A DNA stretch of 64,000 nt from Methanothrix thermoacetophila PT (GTDB lineage Archaea; Halobacteriota; Methanosarcinia; Methanotrichales; Methanotrichaceae): contig NC_008553.1 in the NCBI RefSeq assembly GCF_000014945.1, positions 806,001-870,000 of the forward strand. Direction: 5' to 3'. The translations under genes were made by a program, and so were the position numbers. The notes under the pieces are model-generated. The model ran no database searches. It was not told where the DNA came from and saw only the letters and a list, made by a program, of their open reading frames with translations. Positions within the stretch are counted from its first letter, which is position 1, and every line of letters begins with the position of its first letter. Below, piece after piece: positions 39,524 through 52,575 of the stretch.

Positions 39524-40999
<1,476 letters not shown>

Positions 41000-41060
41000 A
41001 GTGTGCATAAATCGGCCGGAAGCTGATAGGTTCGTCACTTGACCTGTTGCTGGGATCTAT

Positions 41061-41133
41061 GGGCTTGTAGCTCAGCAGGTAGAGCGCCGCCTTTGCGAGG
41101 CGGAGGCCCTGGGTCCGAATCCCAGCAAGTCCA
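41061..41133 (+). tRNA. tRNA-Ala (anticodon TGC) in the 16S-23S spacer
   Basis: Acceptor GGGCTTG / CAAGTCC with discriminator A. Anticodon arm CCGCC-TTTGCGA-GGCGG. The position is the usual one for euryarchaeal rRNA operons. CCA is not encoded. Confidence 0.97.
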
Positions 41134-41239
41134 TTGGGTGCACCTGTGGAGAACTGCTCCACAGGGAAGGGCTGATAATCAAGATGAGGCCACGTATACG
41201 CTTTGCAGACCAGACGCTCACTGAGATCAGTGGGACGAT

Positions 41240-44150
<2,911 letters not shown>

Positions 44151-44198
44151 CCGCTGACCTCAGGCGAATTCTGGATCTGTAAAGCGTATACACAACGC

Positions 44199-44283
44199 GC
44201 CAAGGTGGCGGAGAGGCTACGCAAATGCCTGCAGAACCATAGCGGATAGCATTACCACTCCGGTTCGAATCCGGACCTTGGCT
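44199..44283 (+). tRNA. tRNA-Cys (anticodon GCA) with a 13-base intron
   Basis: Acceptor GCCAAGG / CCTTGGC with discriminator T, as in archaeal tRNA-Cys. The anticodon stem AATGC (44224-44228) pairs with GCATT (44249-44253) only when AACCATAGCGGAT (about 44235-44247) is removed after position 37, the canonical archaeal intron site; the loop then reads CTGCAGA. T arm TCCGG-TTCGAAT-CCGGA. Lies between 23S and 5S, an unusual place. Confidence 0.87.
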
Positions 44284-44292
44284 TCAAATCAG

Positions 44293-44416
44293 AGAGCGGC
44301 GGCCATAGCGGCGGGGAAACTCCTGAACCCTTCCCGAACTCAGAAGATAAGCCCGCCCACGTCCTGCACTGTACTGAGGTGCGCGAGCCCTCGGGAAATG
44401 CAGGTCGCTGCCAACT
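44293..44416 (+). rRNA. rrf: 5S ribosomal RNA
   Basis: Contains the conserved CTTCCCGAACTCAGAAGATA and closing arms GCGGCGGCC / GGTCGCTGCC. Starts ten bases after tRNA-Cys. Ends are approximate. Confidence 0.88.
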
Positions 44417-44466: not shown

Positions 44467-44520
44467 CGGCACTTTTCTTAATGCGGAAATGTTATCACCC
44501 ATAAACCCAGATTTATTTTG

Positions 44521-45075
44521 ATGTCCAGCTTTGTGAAATTCGACCCGCGAACAAGGCTTGCGCATCTTGAGGAGCATTTGCGTCGCATCCACAGAAACAT
44601 CCCACTGGAAGAGGCCCGGATACAGCTTCTGAGATGCAGACTTGTTGCATACAAACTGATCGCAGAGATGGAAGATAGCGAATACGACAAACGGTACGTG
44701 GACAGGCTCATGTCTGAGATCTACGATAAGCTGAGCGAGCTCTCAGGCATAAAGCTCGCAGATCCGTACACGAATCCCTGCGAGTCGCAGTATCAGATCC
44801 TAGAAGAGCTGAAGAGCTACAGGTACAGAGACCCAAATGAGCGCTTCATGAGGTTCGTGAGAGAGGAGTTCAGAGAGATATTCATTCCCACGCTTTTCCT
44901 CCTGACCTACCTCTGCAGGTCTGAGAAGAAATACACCTGGGATGAGGTCAGGTCGCAGCTTGATGCGATCATGCACGACCTGGGCGTTGAGGTTTCCTGG
45001 GAGGAATGTGAGGGGGAATTGAGAAGGTACGCAAAGAAGGTCTTTCCTGTTCTGGATATCGCAGTAGCAGTGTGA
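44521..45075 (+). CDS. Conserved-looking helical protein, unknown function
   Basis: 184 residues. The sequence is rich in charged helices ('HLEEHLRRIHRNIPLEEARI', 'VDRLMSEIYDKLSELSGIKL') and carries a hydrophobic patch 'IFIPTLFLLTYLC'. No signal peptide, zinc site or known motif. The start is the ATG at 44521. The codon use is like the neighbours, so the gene is real; I do not recognise the family. Confidence 0.72.
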   Translation: MSSFVKFDPRTRLAHLEEHLRRIHRNIPLEEARIQLLRCRLVAYKLIAEMEDSEYDKRYVDRLMSEIYDKLSELSGIKLADPYTNPCESQYQILEELKSYRYRDPNERFMRFVREEFREIFIPTLFLLTYLCRSEKKYTWDEVRSQLDAIMHDLGVEVSWEECEGELRRYAKKVFPVLDIAVAV

Positions 45076-45103
45076 TTGTGCACTCACACAACAATTTCCC
45101 GTT

Positions 45104-45227
45104 CGCTCTTATGTGTTCAACAACTTAGAGGACATGTAGTCCAGTTGCTGGAAGCACTCATTCATTCTCCAAGAACGCATGCCGGGGCCATTGTCTTTCC
45201 AGGAAAGTCATTATATGGATAAGAGCG
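45104..45227. mobile_element. MITE-like element B, copy 3
   Basis: 124 bp with intact CGCTCTTATG / ATAAGAGCG ends. Its flanks do not match each other, so the locus has been rearranged since insertion. A second copy of the right-hand 33 bases lies at 45266-45298. Confidence 0.85.
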
Positions 45228-45265
45228 TAGGCCCATAAAATTGTATGGGAAAATATATCTCCCCG

Positions 45266-45298
45266 CTTTCCAGGAAAGTCATTATATGGATAAGAGCG
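45266..45298. repeat. Partial element B, right end only
   Basis: Repeats CTTTCCAGGAAAGTCATTAT and ATGGATAAGAGCG of the neighbouring element. Between the two lies CCCATA-N6-TATGGG (45232-45249), an inverted repeat. This partial end borders the duplicated otsA fragment directly. Confidence 0.7.
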
Positions 45299-45793
45299 TA
45301 GGGGCCAGATGGTTCTGTTGCAGAACCCATGATAGAATTTGTCGATAACCCTATTGCTGAAGAAGGCCGGCCAGCAGTTCATATCCCTCAGCTGTGATGT
45401 GATGTCCTGGATATTCCTGTGCTTATTATGTTCCAGTCACCACCGTCGATCCTGATTCCGCCTCTTGATATCAACTCCGGGCCATCCCACCCAGAGACAA
45501 TCCTGTATCATTTCGGCCCTGGCTTTATCCGATGCGATGAACGATCTTATTCCAGTGGAGAGACCACCAACACTGTCCATAAACCTGATGGCACCTTTTT
45601 CCTCCACAACTGTCACTGGTAAGCGGTTCGATATGATCACAAGCCTCATCAAACACCTCCCCTATTCTACGGATATGGCTCTTCCTAATAAGATCGGCTC
45701 ATACCTCTGATTCGGCGGATCGGCAATCTCGCAGGAGGTGGAGTCGATTGATGTTGGTTGAGCTTGTCAGAGCACCCCCTTCAGACGATTTGG
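45299..45793 (-). pseudogene. Duplicated 5' fragment of otsAB with its promoter, broken
   Basis: Nearly identical to 49968-50414, the promoter and first about 100 codons of the trehalose-phosphate synthase gene at 48071-50272. A 42-base insertion (about 45418-45459) brings in a stop codon, and the copy ends abruptly beside the partial element B. Read on the minus strand it starts MRLVIISNRLPVTVVEEKGA and stops soon after GWPGVDIKRRN. High identity means recent duplication or ongoing gene conversion. Confidence 0.9.
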
Positions 45794-45824
45794 CTACGTG
45801 TGGTATTTGCACATTATCATGAGC

Positions 45825-46060
45825 ATACTTGAGTTACTGCTCAAGTAAAGCCGCTATCATCGGGTATATTCGTTCATCCAGGAATCTGCCAAGAGGGCAA
45901 TTTGCCTCAACGTTATTGAGCATATTCCTATTGAGCCATCACATAAATGTGACAGGAAACACCACGAACCATTCGTGGGATCAAATCGCTGAACGTGATC
46001 TAACGAATTGACATTCATTGGCACAACAATATCACAATTCTGTGAGGTCACATGCTGTTG
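45825..46060 (-). mobile_element. Degenerate IS-like remnant D, copy 2
   Basis: The first 135 bases match 32747-32943. The minus strand carries a 64-codon frame ending LLADSWMNEYTR, comparable to the broken frame in copy 1. ACTTGAGTTACTGCTCAAGT at one end is a near-palindrome suited to a transposon end. Family not identified. Confidence 0.45.
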
Positions 46061-46122
46061 TTTTACAATGAATGCACGAAACGCGGGGTCAACCTCCTGC
46101 CGACTCGTTTTATGGTGAGACT

Positions 46123-46162
46123 ATCCCGAATGCTTTCAGCCTTTTGGCACGCCTTTTTATTG
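46123..46162 (+). repeat. Repeat E, copy 2
   Basis: AATGCTTTCAGCCTTTTGGC followed by ACGCCTTTTTATTGCATGCGG. Matches the copies near 19150 (reverse) and 58275. Confidence 0.5.
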
Positions 46163-46225
46163 CATGCGGAGTATCAATTACCTGAGTGCATGCCGATCTT
46201 GAGACTAATTCTCCTCCCTTACAGC

Positions 46226-47437
46226 TCAAAGATACACGATATCATCCCTGTGATACAGATGTATGAACAGACCCAGGTAGTCTTTTATGTGTCTGGTTAT
46301 TAAAAAATTATTCCTTACGTGCTCTCTGCCACACTCGCCAAGCTTTGAGGCATATCTCGGCTGATTCAGCAGGATTCTGAGATAATGAACGGTTCCCTCT
46401 ATCGAATGTGTGAGTATCCCTGTCTGCCTGTGCCTTATCTGGAGTGGTATCCCACCCACTGCTGAGGCGATGACAGGCTTCCCTTTCCAGAGCGCCTCGG
46501 TCACAGTTAATCCAAAACCCTCACCTAAAGACTTCTGGAGAATAACCGTGGAGCCCCTCTGCAATGCATTTATCTCTATATCCGGCGGATTGTATATCAC
46601 ATGGATATCCGGATCAGTTTCTGCAGCAGCTCTGATCTGCTCGAGAATTGCTGGTCCTTCAGGATCATCTGCTGCACCACCTCCGGCCAGGACCAGCTGG
46701 CAGTCGATATGCTCCTTTACCTTTCTGTAAACCTCGATGACCCCAAACGGATCCTTCAACCGGTCGAATCTGGATACCTGGGTAACGACTGGCCTCTCTC
46801 TATCAATCCCGTAGCGCTCGAGCACCGAGTTAATCGTCTCCTCTGGGAGTTCCATATTTTTACTGCTGAGTGGGTCTATGGATGGAGAAATCAGTACCTG
46901 CTCGATTGTGAGATCCTTTCGGGCGAAGCTGGGCGCCGAAAAGACAGAGACGTCGTACTGCTCGATAAAACCCCTCAGGAAATCCATGATCCTCTCAGCT
47001 GGCCTGGAAAGGTCGATATGGCATCGCCAGATCCATCTTTCTCCACGGGAGTCGCTCTGTTCGATCAGGGGTATAGGCTGTGGATCGTGAATGAAGAGAA
47101 TGTCACCAGAGAGGTCCAGCTCCTGAGCATTCCACCGATTGATCTCGAGGAAGTATTTGAGATCCTCCTCGGAGATCTGAACATCTGATCCGTGAAGTGC
47201 ATTGTGGATGCTCTTGGTGATAGAGAAGAATCTCTCGTCCCCCTTTATAACATCCCAGCGAGCCTCAACACCCAGTTCTTTCATCAGTGGAACTATGTGA
47301 GACAGGATCTCAGCCACACCACCCCCCACAGCTGTGGAGTTGATATGCTGGACAGATTTCCCTTCAAGCTTGTTTGCCAGAAGGTAAAGCTCATCAACCT
47401 CCTCATCGCCAACTATATCCCTGTACTTATCAATCAT
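46226..47437 (-). CDS. Trehalose synthase TreT-like glycosyltransferase (GT4)
   Basis: 403 residues from the ATG at 47437; a TTG at 47452 is the alternative. N-terminal 'VQHINSTAVGGGVAEILSHI' binds the sugar acceptor; 'GERWIWRCHIDLSRPAERIM' and 'EKSLGEGFGLTVTEALWKGK'-like (here QKSLGEGFGLTVTEALWKGK) are the GT4 nucleotide-sugar site. TreT makes trehalose from NDP-glucose and glucose, reversibly. It overlaps the DUF5752 gene, which overlaps otsAB: one operon. Confidence 0.88.
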   Translation of the reverse strand: MIDKYRDIVGDEEVDELYLLANKLEGKSVQHINSTAVGGGVAEILSHIVPLMKELGVEARWDVIKGDERFFSITKSIHNALHGSDVQISEEDLKYFLEINRWNAQELDLSGDILFIHDPQPIPLIEQSDSRGERWIWRCHIDLSRPAERIMDFLRGFIEQYDVSVFSAPSFARKDLTIEQVLISPSIDPLSSKNMELPEETINSVLERYGIDRERPVVTQVSRFDRLKDPFGVIEVYRKVKEHIDCQLVLAGGGAADDPEGPAILEQIRAAAETDPDIHVIYNPPDIEINALQRGSTVILQKSLGEGFGLTVTEALWKGKPVIASAVGGIPLQIRHRQTGILTHSIEGTVHYLRILLNQPRYASKLGECGREHVRNNFLITRHIKDYLGLFIHLYHRDDIVYL

Positions 47438-48074
47438 GGACACGCTCTTCAACCATCCTCACTATCTGATCTCTTAATCTCTCCAGACTGATACAATATG
47501 GATCCAGTCTTGAGATATTGTCTGCAAGCTCCTCTTCCCCGATACTTCTCAGCCACTTGGAGAAATCGTTATCCCTGACACCCAGCCTCATCCTTGCTTC
47601 GAATATATGGAAATAGAGCGAGCGGATGCTCACCTTCTTCAGAGCCTTTGCGAACTCCCACAGGTTGTTGGCCACATACGGCGTGGGTATGACGAGCGTT
47701 TTGGCTGCCATAAAGTGAAACTCAAATCCAGGAGGGCACTCTGTGTTCTCTCCAGACCTGCTTATATAATCCTCGAGGATTTTAGAGAACGTGGATCTCA
47801 GATCCTCCAGATTGCAGTAATCGAGAAGGTCCACGGAGAGAAACTGCTCCCCAAGCCTCTCAAGATGTAGGACATCCGTAAGCCAGAAGGCGAAATCGTT
47901 TGGCGGTTCTGGTGACAGATAGTGATGCTCCTGCACGAATCTGTGTGTATGGTAGTAGATGGATGAGTGGGGAACGGTCTTTATCCCCTCGAGCAGCTCT
48001 CTCAGGTTGCAGGCCTGGACTCCCATCAGCTTGATTATGTGGTATGGCGTGTAGAAATGGAAACCTTCATTCAT
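47430..48074 (-). CDS. DUF5752 family protein, trehalose-operon linked
   Basis: 214 residues. 'GFHFYTPYHIIKLMGVQACN', 'IYYHTHRFVQEHHYL' and 'DFAFWLTDVLHLERLGEQF' are typical of DUF5752. The family is found beside trehalose or sucrose glycosyltransferases, but its role is unknown. The start ATG overlaps the otsAB stop as ATGA and its own stop overlaps the treT-like gene, so the three proteins are coupled in translation. The repeated His and aromatic residues could bind metal or sugar (inference). Confidence 0.82.
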   Translation of the reverse strand: MNEGFHFYTPYHIIKLMGVQACNLRELLEGIKTVPHSSIYYHTHRFVQEHHYLSPEPPNDFAFWLTDVLHLERLGEQFLSVDLLDYCNLEDLRSTFSKILEDYISRSGENTECPPGFEFHFMAAKTLVIPTPYVANNLWEFAKALKKVSIRSLYFHIFEARMRLGVRDNDFSKWLRSIGEEELADNISRLDPYCISLERLRDQIVRMVEERVHD

Positions 48075-50272
48075 TCAACCAACTCCTCCAGCAAGCCCAA
48101 TGCCTCGGAGCAATCCGGGATGTTGTATTTTGCCACAGATTCAATCATTCCCACCTTTATGGTACAGGCCGAATCCGGCAAAGCTCTGAACATATCCTCA
48201 TCAGTTACATCATCTCCCATAGCCAGAATGAAGTCGTATGTCTCTCTGCTCAGGAAGTACCTGAGGGCATTTCCTTTATTAACTCCGCTGGGTCTGATTT
48301 CGATCACCCTGTTTCCTGGAAGTATCTGCACATCGATATTCGCGGTGTAGCTCATGAGATCATCGATGAGCTCTGAGAACTTCTGAGATGCCAGTTCTGG
48401 ATCTGCCATCCTGAAGTGCCACACAACCGAGAAGTCCTTGGTCTCGATAAAGGATCCGGGCACACGGTCAACATACCGCTCCAGGATCGCCTGTATGCTC
48501 GGTATCCAGCTGGTATCCACATTCTTATGGATCTTCATCCATGAGTTCTCCTTCAACTTCAGCCAGAAACCATGCTCAGCCACCAGGTACATATCGAACT
48601 CTCCAAACCATTCTTCCAGCGTCTTCTTGTCGCGACCGCTGATGAGCAATATATCCGTCTTCGGATCATCAACAATGCGCCTGAGCAGACTTCGAACCCT
48701 TTTATCAGGCCTTGCAAGCCCCGGGTACTCTGCGAAGGGGACCAGAGTTCCATCATAGTCAGAAACCACAAGCCTTCGAGCTGCATTTCTGTATCTCTCG
48801 ATAATCTCTCCTCTCTTAACAGAAGTGAGTGGTCTGATCTCCAGATGCTTTCCTTCCTCGGCTGCAGCCCCCAGAGACCTCACAAAGCTTGACGCCCACT
48901 TAAATATATCATTCCGCTTCAGTCTGGACTGTATCATCCGGCACCGCCAGATCTGCTCGTCCTCCGGCATCTCAAGCGCCTTCAGAATCGCATCGGCTAT
49001 CTCCTCTATGTTGTACGGATTTATCAATATCGCCTCAACAGCCTCCTTTGAGGCCCCGGCCATCTCACTGAGAATGAGAACACCCCTGCAGTCGACCTTG
49101 GAGGCGATGTACTCCTTCGCCACAAGGTTCATGCCATCTCTCAGAGGCGTGATGAGAGCGGTATCACAGAGATTGTACAGGGCCTGAAGCTGGGGCTCTG
49201 GCAAATATCTGTAAGTGTATAAGATAGGTGTCCAGTCCACTTTCCCGAACTTGCCATTTATATCTCCAACCTTTTCATCTATCTGCCGCTTCATCTGCTG
49301 ATAATGCTCAACCCTGACTCTTGAGGGAACAACCACGAGGACCAGGATTACCCTTCCATGCCATGAGGGATTTTTTTTAAGAAACGCCTCATATCCCTCA
49401 AGTCTCTTGACTATTCCTTTTGTGTAATCCAGTCGATCTATTGAGAGAACAGTCTTTCTATCACGGAATGCTGCTTTAAATGCCTCCATCTCCACCTGCA
49501 CTGCTGGATTCTGTCTTGAACTGTGAAACTTATCGAAATCTATCCCCATTGGAAACACATCCACTCTGACAAGATGTCCTTTATAGAGAATGTTACCAAG
49601 GTGACTCTCTGCCCCAACTATACGAAGTGCAGCCCTCAAGAAGTTTCGTGCATAATCGTATGTGTGGAAGCCTATCAGGTTCGATCCCAGGAGCCCATCC
49701 ACGATTGCACGCTGCCAGTCCTTTGGTAAAATCTGAAAGACCTCATATGACGGAAATGGTATGTGAAGAAAGAAGCCTATCGGAAGATCGTGGAACCTCT
49801 CTCGGAGCATCTGCGGCAGGAGCATAAGATGGTAATCGTGAATCCACACCAAATCCCCTGGCATCAGGATCCTGGAGATCTCCTCCGCGAACACTCTGTT
49901 CGCATGGATGTAAGTATTCCAGTGATCCTTGTTGTATGACGTGAGTGATGGGAAATAATGGAATAGGGGCCAGATGGTTCTGTTGCAGAACCCATGATAG
50001 AATTTGTCGATAACCCTATTGCTGAAGAAGACCGGCCAGCAGTTCATATCCTTCAGCTGTGATGTGATGTCCTGGATATTCCGCCTCTTTAAATCAACTC
50101 CGGGCCATCCCACCCAGAGACAATCCTGTATCATTTCGGCCCTGGCTTTATCCGATGCGATGAACGATCTTATTCCAGTGGAGAGACCACCAACACTGTC
50201 CATAAACCTGATGGCACCTTTTTCCTCCACAACTGTCACTGGTAAGCGGTTCGATATGATCACAAGCCTCAT
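48071..50272 (-). CDS. otsAB: Trehalose-6-phosphate synthase / trehalose-phosphatase fusion
   Basis: 733 residues from the ATG at 50272, which follows GGGGAGGTG. Residues 1-470 are a GT20 synthase: 'MRLVIISNRLPVTV', 'DLVWIHDYHLMLLPQMLRER', 'SIDRLDYTKGIVKRLEGYEA', 'ALITPLRDGMNLVAKEYIAS'. Residues about 495-733 are a HAD phosphatase: DYDGTLVPFAEYP nucleophile near residue 504 and 'AMGDDVTDEDMFRAL'. It makes trehalose-6-phosphate from UDP-glucose and glucose-6-phosphate and removes the phosphate. Trehalose protects against salt, heat or drying. First gene of the operon; a broken copy of its 5' end lies downstream of the operon. Confidence 0.96.
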   Translation of the reverse strand: MRLVIISNRLPVTVVEEKGAIRFMDSVGGLSTGIRSFIASDKARAEMIQDCLWVGWPGVDLKRRNIQDITSQLKDMNCWPVFFSNRVIDKFYHGFCNRTIWPLFHYFPSLTSYNKDHWNTYIHANRVFAEEISRILMPGDLVWIHDYHLMLLPQMLRERFHDLPIGFFLHIPFPSYEVFQILPKDWQRAIVDGLLGSNLIGFHTYDYARNFLRAALRIVGAESHLGNILYKGHLVRVDVFPMGIDFDKFHSSRQNPAVQVEMEAFKAAFRDRKTVLSIDRLDYTKGIVKRLEGYEAFLKKNPSWHGRVILVLVVVPSRVRVEHYQQMKRQIDEKVGDINGKFGKVDWTPILYTYRYLPEPQLQALYNLCDTALITPLRDGMNLVAKEYIASKVDCRGVLILSEMAGASKEAVEAILINPYNIEEIADAILKALEMPEDEQIWRCRMIQSRLKRNDIFKWASSFVRSLGAAAEEGKHLEIRPLTSVKRGEIIERYRNAARRLVVSDYDGTLVPFAEYPGLARPDKRVRSLLRRIVDDPKTDILLISGRDKKTLEEWFGEFDMYLVAEHGFWLKLKENSWMKIHKNVDTSWIPSIQAILERYVDRVPGSFIETKDFSVVWHFRMADPELASQKFSELIDDLMSYTANIDVQILPGNRVIEIRPSGVNKGNALRYFLSRETYDFILAMGDDVTDEDMFRALPDSACTIKVGMIESVAKYNIPDCSEALGLLEELVE

Positions 50273-50307
50273 CAAACACCTCCCCTATTCTACGGATATG
50301 GCTCTTC

Positions 50308-50414
50308 CTAAATAAGATTGGCTCATCCCTCTGATTCGGCGGATCGGCAATCTCGCAGGAGATGGAGTCGATTGATGTTGGTCGGACAGAACTCAACACT
50401 TCGACGATTCGGCC
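50308..50414 (-). promoter_or_regulatory. otsAB promoter with paired GCCGAATC sites
   Basis: Minus-strand order: GGCCGAATCGTCG (50402-50414), spacer, CCGATCCGCCGAATCA (50332-50347), about 15 bases, TATA-like CTTATTTAGG (50308-50317), then the leader and start. The same order and similar distances occur before the FMN-binding protein gene at 27468. Suits an activator binding next to the TATA/BRE. Confidence 0.55.
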
Positions 50415-50493
50415 TCATGAGCCGTAAGATCAAACTGCATTTGGGAAGGTCACGCTCGTTAAGATACATCCCGTACCTCTGTGAATCAATGTT

Positions 50494-52575
50494 TCATGCG
50501 GAGACACCAGGCTCTTTAAGCTGTGATATGACCCCCTCCGCAATCTTCGGGCCGAGGATCTCTGACAGGGTGGATTTATCAGCTGCTTTTAGATCCTCCA
50601 GGCTCCTGTAGCCTGCCTGGTAGAGCTTCCGCGCCCTCACCCTGCCTATGCCCTTCAGCTCCAAGAGTTGTAAGAGCTCATCGCCTGCGCCATAGTGTAT
50701 TCTGAGCGCCAGCCTCTCAGCCAGATATGTGACTCCGAGGTCCATATGCTTCGATATCCTGTGCAGCGCGCTCATGAGCCACTCCGCGGTCTCCGCTATC
50801 CTCACGAGATCTCCGGGGCTGATGCTGTATCTGTCCTCGATCCTGTCCTCATGCACCTCGTTTATCCAGTCCATGAGCATGGATGCGGTCTTCACCTCTC
50901 TCAGTAGCCAGTCGAAGTTCTTCTCGTTCCCGAGCTCTGATGAGTGCTCGGAGATGAAATCCTCGAGCCAGTTATCGCTCTGCTGAACAAAGAGGAGCTC
51001 CATATCAGGGGTCATCGTTATCACATGCAATAGCGTGAGCACAGTGGGCCTGCGAATGCCTCTGATCTCCTGGATCATCACCATGGCGCTCAGCGGATCA
51101 ATGTACAGCCTGGACACCAGAGCGCCAAGGGGTGTTGGTGTGAGATCCTTATCGATCATATCGCTCCTCACGAGAAACTCCAGGACAGAAGCTATCGTCT
51201 CTCCCAGGTATGATGGATCCTGCTGGCGGGCGTAGAATGTGGATGCCATGAGCCTGCTCAGGGAGTCAACCGAATCTGCGAATCTGGAAGCAATCGTTGC
51301 AAGCACATGCGTGCGAAGCGCCCTCTCGCTGGCCAGCTTCGACCAAATATCCTCAGGCTCTCCCATTACATAGTGATCCATGAGCTTTTGGAGCTCGCTC
51401 TCGCTCCTGGCCATGATGAGCGACTCCCCGTAGGGATCGAGCCCCGGCCTGCCTGCTCTGCCTGCCATCTGCCTGTACTCCATGACCGGAATTGGGCGTG
51501 TTCCGAGACCAGCTTCATATCTCTTGTAGCTCCTTATGAGAACCCTGCGTGCAGGTAAGTTCAGTCCAGCCGCGAGGGTCGGGGTGCATGCTATTACCTT
51601 CACAACATTCTGCCTGAATCCGAGCTCTATCAGACGCCTCTGCTCCGGGAGCAGCCCTGCATGATGGAACGCGGCTCCATGCCTCAGGCACATTGCGAGT
51701 TTCTTCGCGGTCTTGCCCTCGCCGCTCAGCCTCTCAGCGAGCTCGATCGTCTCCCCTGATTCCTGGAGAGCTCCGGAGACCTTCTTAGCCATCGACTCAG
51801 CATTCCTCCTGGTGCTCTCGAATATCAGCATCTGGCCGCCCTGATCAACTGTATCCAGAACCAGGTTCAGCACAGGATCCCTGTTCCGGTTCTCGAGCTG
51901 TATCTCCCCATCCGGAAAGACCAGCCTGTCCTCCAGCAGCACACCCTCCCGGAGCCGTACGGGCCGCCAGTCGCTCGAGACGATCTCCCCTTTTATCCAG
52001 TCCGCGATCTCCCTTCCGTTGGCTATCGTCGCGCTGAGCCCGATCACCTGCATCTCAGGATTGAGATGCATGAGCTTCGTCATCGTCATCTCCAGCGTTG
52101 GCCCTCTGTTTGCTGAGTCCAGGAGGTGAATCTCGTCCACAACAAGAACGCCGATCCTGCGCACCCAGGAGGCTCCGTTCCGTATCAGAGAGTCCGCCTT
52201 CTCGGACGTCGCTATGATGATGTCATTCCTGCCCAGACGCTCATCCCTTTTCTCGAAATCTCCGGTGCTAATCCCTACCCTCAAGCCGAGCTTGGAGAAC
52301 CTGCTGAAACTCTCGAACTTCTCCGAGGCCAGAGCGCGCAGCGGGACTATGTAGAGAGACCTTTTTCCCGAGAGCGCGCCCCTGAGCATCGCAAGCTCCG
52401 CGAGGAGGGTCTTTCCAGCTGCGGTCGGCACTGATATGATCATGTTCCTGCCGTCAAGGAGCCCGCGCTCTATCGCCTCGGCCTGTGGTGGGTATAGCTC
52501 ATCTATCCCCAGGGCCTCGTAAAGCTCTATGACGCTCTCAGGCAGCCATCTGATCAGATCTCTGATCGTGAGCAT
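50494..52575 (-). CDS. hel308: Hel308-type DNA helicase
   Basis: 693 residues. It opens with 'LGIDELYPPQAEAIERG' (Q motif), Walker A VPTAAGKTLLAEL near residue 50, DEIH box VVDEIHLL near residue 147, 'IGLSATIANGREIADWI' and motif VI YRQMAGRAGRPGLD. The C-terminus ends with a helix-hairpin-helix (ELKGIGRVRARKLYQAGYRS). It unwinds lagging strands at stalled forks. It is divergent from dapL with 81 bases between. Confidence 0.95.
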   Translation of the reverse strand: MLTIRDLIRWLPESVIELYEALGIDELYPPQAEAIERGLLDGRNMIISVPTAAGKTLLAELAMLRGALSGKRSLYIVPLRALASEKFESFSRFSKLGLRVGISTGDFEKRDERLGRNDIIIATSEKADSLIRNGASWVRRIGVLVVDEIHLLDSANRGPTLEMTMTKLMHLNPEMQVIGLSATIANGREIADWIKGEIVSSDWRPVRLREGVLLEDRLVFPDGEIQLENRNRDPVLNLVLDTVDQGGQMLIFESTRRNAESMAKKVSGALQESGETIELAERLSGEGKTAKKLAMCLRHGAAFHHAGLLPEQRRLIELGFRQNVVKVIACTPTLAAGLNLPARRVLIRSYKRYEAGLGTRPIPVMEYRQMAGRAGRPGLDPYGESLIMARSESELQKLMDHYVMGEPEDIWSKLASERALRTHVLATIASRFADSVDSLSRLMASTFYARQQDPSYLGETIASVLEFLVRSDMIDKDLTPTPLGALVSRLYIDPLSAMVMIQEIRGIRRPTVLTLLHVITMTPDMELLFVQQSDNWLEDFISEHSSELGNEKNFDWLLREVKTASMLMDWINEVHEDRIEDRYSISPGDLVRIAETAEWLMSALHRISKHMDLGVTYLAERLALRIHYGAGDELLQLLELKGIGRVRARKLYQAGYRSLEDLKAADKSTLSEILGPKIAEGVISQLKEPGVSA

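Follow-up and report, generated by a model that had tools for sequence, protein, structure and literature searches.

Organization of the trehalose operon

The 64,000-nucleotide stretch analysed here (the window) covers positions 806001–870000 of the Methanothrix thermoacetophila PT genome, a single contig of 1,879,471 bases, and contains on its minus strand (50272–46226) three overlapping genes that encode, in this order, an OtsA-OtsB fusion (TPSP), a small protein of the Pfam family DUF5752 and the trehalose synthase TreT (Table 1). Domain profiles and direct reading of the sequence agree on the presence, position and strand of the three genes, as given in a preliminary description of this DNA. 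The ATGA overlaps reported there are found at the TPSP/DUF5752 junction only, since DUF5752 and TreT overlap by 8 nucleotides (nt) when counted from the TreT ATG, or by 23 nt from the alternative TTG; the ATG is preferred because it aligns with the start of 6zj4, a solved TreT. For TPSP, the start was placed at the ATG behind the GGAGGTG motif, the open reading frame (ORF) listing having taken an in-frame TTG one codon upstream. The leader in front of it corresponds to 50276–50493.

Table 1. Features of the trehalose operon and its flank, in window coordinates (aa, amino acids; HAD, haloacid dehalogenase; TPS and TPP, trehalose-6-phosphate synthase and phosphatase; AF2, AlphaFold2)
Feature	Position	Strand	Evidence
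TPSP (OtsA GT20 + OtsB HAD fusion)	48071..50272	-	PF00982, PF02358, NF011071, TPP motifs
OtsA (TPS) domain of TPSP	48872..50269	-	PF00982, residues 3-468
OtsB (TPP) domain of TPSP	48143..48760	-	PF02358, residues 506-711
ATGA stop/start overlap, TPSP-DUF5752	48071..48074	-	sequence reading
DUF5752 (OrfY-like), 214 aa, two tandem modules	47430..48074	-	PF19027, 4CSO homology, AF2 model
DUF5752 module 1, residues 2-105	47760..48071	-	hhalign half vs half; single-module profile E 3e-11
DUF5752 module 2, residues 113-212	47439..47738	-	hhalign half vs half; single-module profile E 6.4e-15
8-nt overlap ATGATTGA of the DUF5752 end with the probable beginning of TreT	47430..47437	-	sequence reading; start by 6zj4 alignment
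TreT, GT4 trehalose glycosyltransferring synthase	46226..47437	-	PF21269, PF00534; alternative TTG start at 47452
GGAGGTG, Shine-Dalgarno-like, before the TPSP ATG	50277..50283	-	sequence reading
Decayed partial duplicate of the operon 5' end (leader + TPSP start)	45299..45758	-	blastn

Pairing of DUF5752 and TreT across genomes

A scan of genome contigs, seeded with the proteins of the window and of locus L003, gave 104 confirmed loci, and the best 80 of these, spanning about 20 phyla as counted by record titles and tree labels, were compared (L and G numbers denote loci and genomes). In all 80 loci treT follows the DUF5752 gene on the same strand, TreT being clipped at the end of the stretch in four, and in 78 of them the two genes overlap or are at most 16 nt apart (140–142 nt in the remaining two). 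Because this order recurs across about 20 phyla, it is not attributable to chance.

Since the 80-locus sample was seeded from paired proteins, the profiles PF19027 (DUF5752) and PF21269 (N-terminal domain of TreT) were run over whole genomes. Among 193 genomes of the phylum of L073 (Omnitrophota according to the record titles; at least two seed genomes included), 81 contain a total of 82 PF19027 matches; for 77 of these a TreT lies within 2 kb on the same strand, directly next in 76 cases, and the other five matches are at contig edges. One gene for a 397-residue ATPase-like protein stands between DUF5752 and treT in G444. PF19027 matches were seen in 14 of 301 Chloroflexota and in 25 of 296 Bacteroidota genomes sampled, and the full-length proteins among them (five and eight, with one seed genome each) are all followed by treT. 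In the phylum of the window the family was matched in 27 of 294 genomes, with full-length proteins only in the window genome (G000) and in G179, both beside treT, and TreT-domain matches were found in 36 genomes. The dependence is one-way: 25 of the 104 genomes with a TreT-domain match have no DUF5752 match, although six of these 25 have the domain only in frames longer than 550 residues and in one (G410) it stands at a contig end. The genome of Sulfolobus acidocaldarius, a genetically tractable species with treT deletion strains available (PMC7688234), matches both profiles, the extent and neighbourhood of the matches not being visible.

This constant pairing indicates, at the level of sequence, that the real unit is DUF5752 plus TreT. 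The preliminary description suggested that DUF5752 could tie TPSP and TreT together. DUF5752 does go with these enzymes, yet its tie is to TreT and not to both in equal measure; otsA and otsB are looser companions, variable in position and architecture.

OtsA and OtsB in the related loci

Genes for OtsA and/or OtsB occur in 61 of the 80 loci, otsA being placed upstream in 44 and downstream in eight. Eleven of the other 19 loci offer at least 3.5 kb on each side without any match, and the 3.6-kb stretch of L003 gave no otsA or otsB match either. The OtsA proteins fall into two groups by their similarity to that of the window, with scores of 504–717 bits in 14 loci and of 114–282 bits in 38 (the lowest three being clipped frames). 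The two high-scoring proteins scanned (L034 and L048) are OtsA-OtsB fusions, whereas the eight low-scoring ones scanned contain GT20 without the phosphatase. In 14 loci the low-scoring OtsA is 743–789 residues long and shows, by a plain hydropathy window, two transmembrane-like stretches about 160 residues apart before GT20; OtsA frames of 700 residues or more are thus not always OtsA-OtsB fusions, the extra length here being an N-terminal membrane part. Of seven such proteins scanned against Pfam, that of L092 contains a Cache domain (PF17203, 34.4 bits, cut-off 28.4), those of L050, L073, L077 and L099 gave Cache-like matches below the cut-off, accompanied in two cases by HAMP matches also below it, and those of L079 and L102 gave neither Cache nor HAMP matches. 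Judged by this layout, the OtsA proteins with long N-termini look like membrane receptors with a trehalose-6-phosphate synthase output. The OtsA frame of L104 (1114 residues) was excluded as unreliable, and an apparent OtsB-DUF5752 fusion in the same locus was rejected, the long ORF being a spurious 5' extension in a different frame.

A further possibility, in line with the preliminary description, is that DUF5752 is a scaffold by which TPSP and TreT are held together as a single trehalose synthase complex. The three overlapping genes of the window and the presence of otsA or otsB in most loci would fit such a role, as would a mirror-tree comparison over 47 loci, in which the distances of DUF5752 correlate with those of OtsA (0.63; TreT-OtsA, 0.45). 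In addition, the TPSP of Thermoproteus tenax is synthase-active only together with its GT4 partner (PMC3634074, cited here and below for its accessible sections), and because that complex exists, one between TPSP and TreT is plausible. The T. tenax partner is, however, PimA-like and not a TreT, according to the same source; otsA varies in position and architecture among the loci, and the loci without any otsA or otsB match have DUF5752 and treT nonetheless. We therefore regard a scaffold as unlikely, although a contact of TPSP with the DUF5752-TreT pair, as in the 'one machine' of the preliminary description, is possible.

Both enzymes of the window appear intact

The two domains of TPSP lie in one frame (PF00982, 496 bits; PF02358, 175 bits) and the protein matches NF011071, the NCBIfam model of the bifunctional enzyme, at 1047 bits (cut-off 634). 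It keeps the three TPP motifs DYDGT, SG and K(X)n GDDVTD listed in PMC3634074, where the TPSP fusion of Methanosaeta thermophila is already recorded (Zaparty 2013).

TreT matches the N-terminal domain PF21269 (189.7 bits) and the GT4 domain PF00534 (81.7 bits) above their cut-offs, and its nearest solved relatives are the TreTs of Thermoproteus uzoniensis (6zj4, E 8e-128; 49% identity over 395 columns) and Pyrococcus horikoshii (2x6q, E 2e-113; 48% over 389 columns), which belong to the same GT4 family. With them the window protein has in common the residues conserved in this family: all 63 positions conserved over 80 paired and 19 unpaired TreTs are present, including the stretch EGFGLTVTE, which we take to be the GT4 EX7E motif. 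As both enzymes look intact, the two routes from different substrates put forward in the preliminary description are plausible, and TPSP and TreT would both make trehalose, the latter directly from a nucleoside diphosphate (NDP)-glucose and glucose.

A tree of 102 TreTs, quickly built and with long branches, was calculated with 80 paired sequences (one each from the window, from L003 and from 78 of the 80 loci, after removal of two short TreTs). The 80 paired TreTs form one clade with the TreT of T. uzoniensis as its sister and that of P. horikoshii outside, and 19 of the 20 unpaired TreTs also lie outside; the exception, L188 (G410), is cut off by a contig edge, so that its pairing is not visible. 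Thirteen columns distinguish the paired clade, among them H87 (Q in the unpaired proteins) and L232 (W). PF21269 also matched inside giant open frames of 37,731 (G395:C3), 26,531 (G487:C10) and 15,308 residues (G429:C33).

Such clade-specific columns could mean that the paired enzyme uses another acceptor and makes a different product, and the window TreT indeed stays below the cut-off of the TreT equivalog NF041139 (422 bits against 775). That model is named for Thermococcales, so that the miss argues only against membership of this subgroup, and the 63 retained residues together with the identity to the solved T. uzoniensis enzyme speak for a genuine TreT. Furthermore, Saci_1827 of S. acidocaldarius functions as a TreT in vivo (PMC7688234, accessible sections), in the genome mentioned above with a PF19027 match of unseen extent. 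A different product therefore seems very improbable.

The direction of the reaction is a separate matter. The phosphatase step that ends TPSP synthesis is practically irreversible, and some TreTs are reversible. TreT might on these grounds mainly degrade trehalose (with NDP, to NDP-glucose and glucose) and recycle the product of TPSP, with DUF5752 switching it on after stress; the pairing with MscS channels described below would suit such a release or recovery phase. The paired clade groups, however, with the TreT of T. uzoniensis and apart from that of P. horikoshii, for which reason a unidirectional TreT may be the better model, and direction is not readable from sequence. We consider a mainly degradative role improbable. 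The TreT pathway of T. tenax has been called unidirectional (PMC3634074).

DUF5752 is a tandem repeat with the fold of OrfY

The window protein matches PF19027 over positions 2–208 of 208 (207 covered) with 247 bits (cut-off 23). A profile of 75 DUF5752 homologues matches the OrfY protein of T. tenax (4CSO; 29% identity) with E 2.1e-33, and the AF2 model of the window protein (predicted local distance difference test 89, predicted TM-score 0.81) superimposes on this crystal structure along the whole length (Foldseek E 3.3e-15, TM-score 0.83; VIA Z 21.9, root mean square deviation 2.7, 207 aligned residues). The two proteins are thus homologous and have the same fold. Other fold matches (E above 1 in Foldseek, or Z 4.2 and lower in VIA) and other sequence matches in the Protein Data Bank (best E 0.18 and 0.012) were dropped, the latter as chance. 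The statement of the preliminary description that DUF5752 has no known role needs qualifying, since OrfY was deposited as 'ORFY PROTEIN, TRANSCRIPTION FACTOR'; our reading of the window protein departs from that label.

A closer comparison of the two halves revealed a tandem repeat of a module of about 90 residues (hhalign probability 99.0, E 3.1e-18), with an F-x-F strand, an S-[IL]-Y-[YF]-H helix and an NDF-x-x-W helix common to both. The residues H42, D60, W64, H156 and D170 of DUF5752 are invariant. Single copies of the module are also found C-terminally in NDP-sugar pyrophosphorylase-like and GH57 proteins, ahead of PPDK_N, in proteins with HAD and HerA-like domains, and alone. Six of these proteins were scanned against Pfam (two GH57 proteins and one each of the pyrophosphorylase-like, stand-alone, HAD+HerA and PPDK-like types), the others being judged by eye, and the module exceeded the Pfam cut-off on NTP_transferase, GH57 (L017), HAD+HerA and PPDK_N proteins; hhalign gave E values of 9e-20 and 6e-14 for the module on other proteins. 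A profile built from 16 single modules (A3) and free of DUF5752 sequences matches the DUF5752 family with E 1.3e-21 and detects each half of the window protein separately (Table 1). It also matches 95 of 374 genomes of the window's phylum, including five sampled genomes of the same genus, partly by construction because this phylum supplied eight of its rows.

Some of these proteins deserve a separate mention. In each of the five same-genus genomes the A3 profile matches one frame of 508–534 residues. A GH57 protein of the window genome (L002, G000:C1:250748-253900) ends in a DUF5752-like module, a weak match of 18 bits against a cut-off of 23 (hhalign probability 27). L176, L177 and L163, of about 1000 residues, have a single DUF5752-like module before PPDK_N (L176 scanned, the others by eye), with a weak receiver-domain match near the N-terminus of L176, and are possibly regulated proteins similar to phosphoenolpyruvate synthase. 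In the Chloroflexota sample, the proteins L158 (scanned) and L159, L161, L164 and L166 (judged by eye) unite a HAD phosphatase with a HerA-like ATPase and a DUF5752-like module.

The strong homology and common fold with 4CSO, and the location of the gene within the operon, which would suit an autoregulator, are what might be expected if DUF5752 and OrfY were transcription factors controlling the trehalose operon. No DNA-binding family appeared among the Pfam matches of DUF5752 and no other fold match stood out, which does not amount to an exclusion. The protein is acidic, with an isoelectric point (pI) of 5.65 (5.3 for the matched part of OrfY), and only 14 of the 75 homologues have a pI above 7.5. 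A transcription factor would have no need to stay next to treT, and the fusion of the single module to enzymes and of the complete protein to a membrane channel fits poorly with such a function. Taken together, a transcription factor appears distinctly unlikely.

Connection with MscS-type channels

In L082 a single frame of 502 residues contains the MscS beta-domain (PF00924) and DUF5752. Three further loci of the Chloroflexota sample (L153, L155 and L156) have this architecture, with treT directly next, so that the fusion is hardly an assembly slip; it accounts for four of the five full-length Chloroflexota cases (PF00924, 50–62 bits; PF19027, 215–231 bits). The four fusions have the beta-domain in common with MscS channels, but they gave no match to the MscS C-terminal domain PF21082, whose place is occupied by DUF5752. 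Of four separate MscS genes scanned, three encode this domain, and the short MscS of L032 is without it. An alignment (A4) that combined the L082 fusion with rows of MscS and of DUF5752 was misaligned and was discarded.

Twenty of the 80 loci contain an MscS-like gene, the fusion included, where 0.43 would be expected, the expectation being derived from 26 PF00924 matches in 46.9 Mb (rounded sizes) of 19 genomes, some of them within these very operons, and the two counts resting on different models because the 20 came from the loci's own MscS-cluster profile. In seven loci no more than 17 nt separate an upstream MscS-like gene from DUF5752, and in the Bacteroidota sample such a gene is directly upstream in five of the eight full-length cases (seed genome included). 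L032, a close relative of the window, has an MscS-like gene of 180 residues after treT. In L142 a membrane protein of family PF05552 takes the position of the MscS gene; a long frame of this locus (G446) was rejected as a fusion, since it is an extension over that separate 248-residue protein.

Other genes that would fit osmoregulation were recognized by eye near the trehalose genes, namely ClC channel-like genes in L042, L044, L070, L092 and L095 (cluster c5) and CdaA-like diadenylate cyclase genes in L039, L049, L075, L078, L102 and L106 (cluster c3).

Proposed role of DUF5752

On balance we consider it probable, with only modest confidence, that the three genes constitute an acquired osmostress trehalose operon in which DUF5752 is the sensor or regulatory partner of TreT. 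DUF5752 would be a dedicated, non-catalytic partner, a cytosolic sensor or adaptor of two tandem modules that would bind TreT and adjust its activity, or the direction of its reaction, to the osmotic state or a sugar metabolite. The protein is wired in other species to an MscS-type channel, adjoining or fused in place of the MscS C-terminal domain, and for this reason the signal suggested is membrane tension or else the osmolyte state by which the channel, too, is gated. The receptor-like OtsA proteins of 14 loci fit this sensor theme. The sequences themselves show the operon, the constant pairing, the single clade of paired TreTs, the tandem module with its occurrence on carbohydrate-related enzymes, and the MscS fusion; binding to TreT, regulation, the signal and any contact with TPSP are inferred from them.

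Several observations weigh against this interpretation. The window operon contains no MscS gene, the two of the genome being located elsewhere, and the TPSP of the window is devoid of the N-terminal membrane sensor part, so that the link to sensing is an extrapolation from other species; besides, six of the seven loci with MscS immediately upstream are from related Bacteroidetes, and the signal assigned to the module is conjectural. The original set of loci was obtained with DUF5752 proteins encoded beside treT as seeds, and the surveyed phyla were reached through these loci. The mirror-tree distances of DUF5752 correlate with those of TreT no better than with those of OtsA (0.63 in both cases), and the deposit label of 4CSO points elsewhere. 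As to the acquisition, L032 belongs to the same genus and carries the operon, so that its distribution there is patchy and the genus is not void of it.

A bolder form of the proposal, which we hold to be possible but doubtful, makes DUF5752 a mechano-metabolic transducer through which TreT docks on the cytosolic face of an MscS-type channel (or on free DUF5752 in operons that, like that of the window, have no channel gene), membrane tension or osmolyte level directly setting trehalose synthesis. The module of about 90 residues would then be a widespread and hitherto unrecognized domain for sensing sugars or osmotic state, with control over GH57 enzymes, NDP-sugar pyrophosphorylases and PPDK-like proteins as well.

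TPSP fusions, TreT, the structure of OrfY and the presence of a channel gene in a trehalose operon have been described before. The closest precedent is the msc-gt-tpsp operon of T. tenax, for which a stress response using all three proteins was proposed (PMC3634074). It resembles the window in the TPSP fusion with a GT4 partner, and 20 of the 80 related loci in the MscS-type gene, although the window operon has no channel gene. The T. tenax GT (TTX_1305) is described as PimA-like and as an activator of TPSP, not as a TreT; the GT4 of the window carries the TreT domain, has TreTs as its nearest relatives and so differs from the PimA-like type, TTX_1305 being set apart by that description. DUF5752 is not mentioned in the accessible sections of PMC3634074. 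A literature search that covered few subscription journals brought up nothing on DUF5752 or OrfY, on the pairing of DUF5752 with TreT, on the occurrence of the module in further carbohydrate-related enzymes or on MscS-DUF5752 fusions, which is no proof that such accounts have not been published.

To our knowledge, how prokaryotic trehalose enzymes perceive osmotic stress is little understood. A small protein beside one enzyme in about 20 phyla, sometimes fused to a channel, offers a concrete connection, open to experiment, between the sensing of tension and the synthesis of an osmolyte. The findings further provide a function hypothesis for the family DUF5752 and put the 'transcription factor' label of 4CSO in doubt.

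Origin and surroundings of the operon

The trehalose operon was probably acquired from bacteria, as judged from phylogeny, distribution and base composition. The window TreT falls in a clade of 16 rows (support 96) that is otherwise bacterial except for L032, and five same-genus genomes contain neither the DUF5752 (PF19027) nor the TreT family. The G+C content is 0.47–0.50 at 45–50 kb against 0.52–0.59 in the surrounding bins from 38 to 58 kb (0.55–0.57 at 51–54 kb), the rRNA genes occupying 39.5–44.4 kb. A transfer of TPSPs from bacteria to archaea was already argued by Zaparty 2013 (PMC3634074).

The decayed duplicate of the operon 5' end matches 49964–50382 with 89.2% identity over 461 columns, and a tps fragment in the same species is mentioned in PMC3634074. 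Scans of 45000–50800 with bacterial models gave four promoter-like sites against 6.8 expected and seven terminator-like sites against 3.9 expected (standard deviation 2.2), from which no conclusion was drawn. A plus-strand ORF of 185 residues (44518–45075) has no Pfam or NCBIfam match at E 0.001. An rRNA operon (16S, tRNA, 23S, tRNA, 5S) on the plus strand at 39525–44416 directly adjoins the trehalose operon and is a possible insertion neighbourhood.

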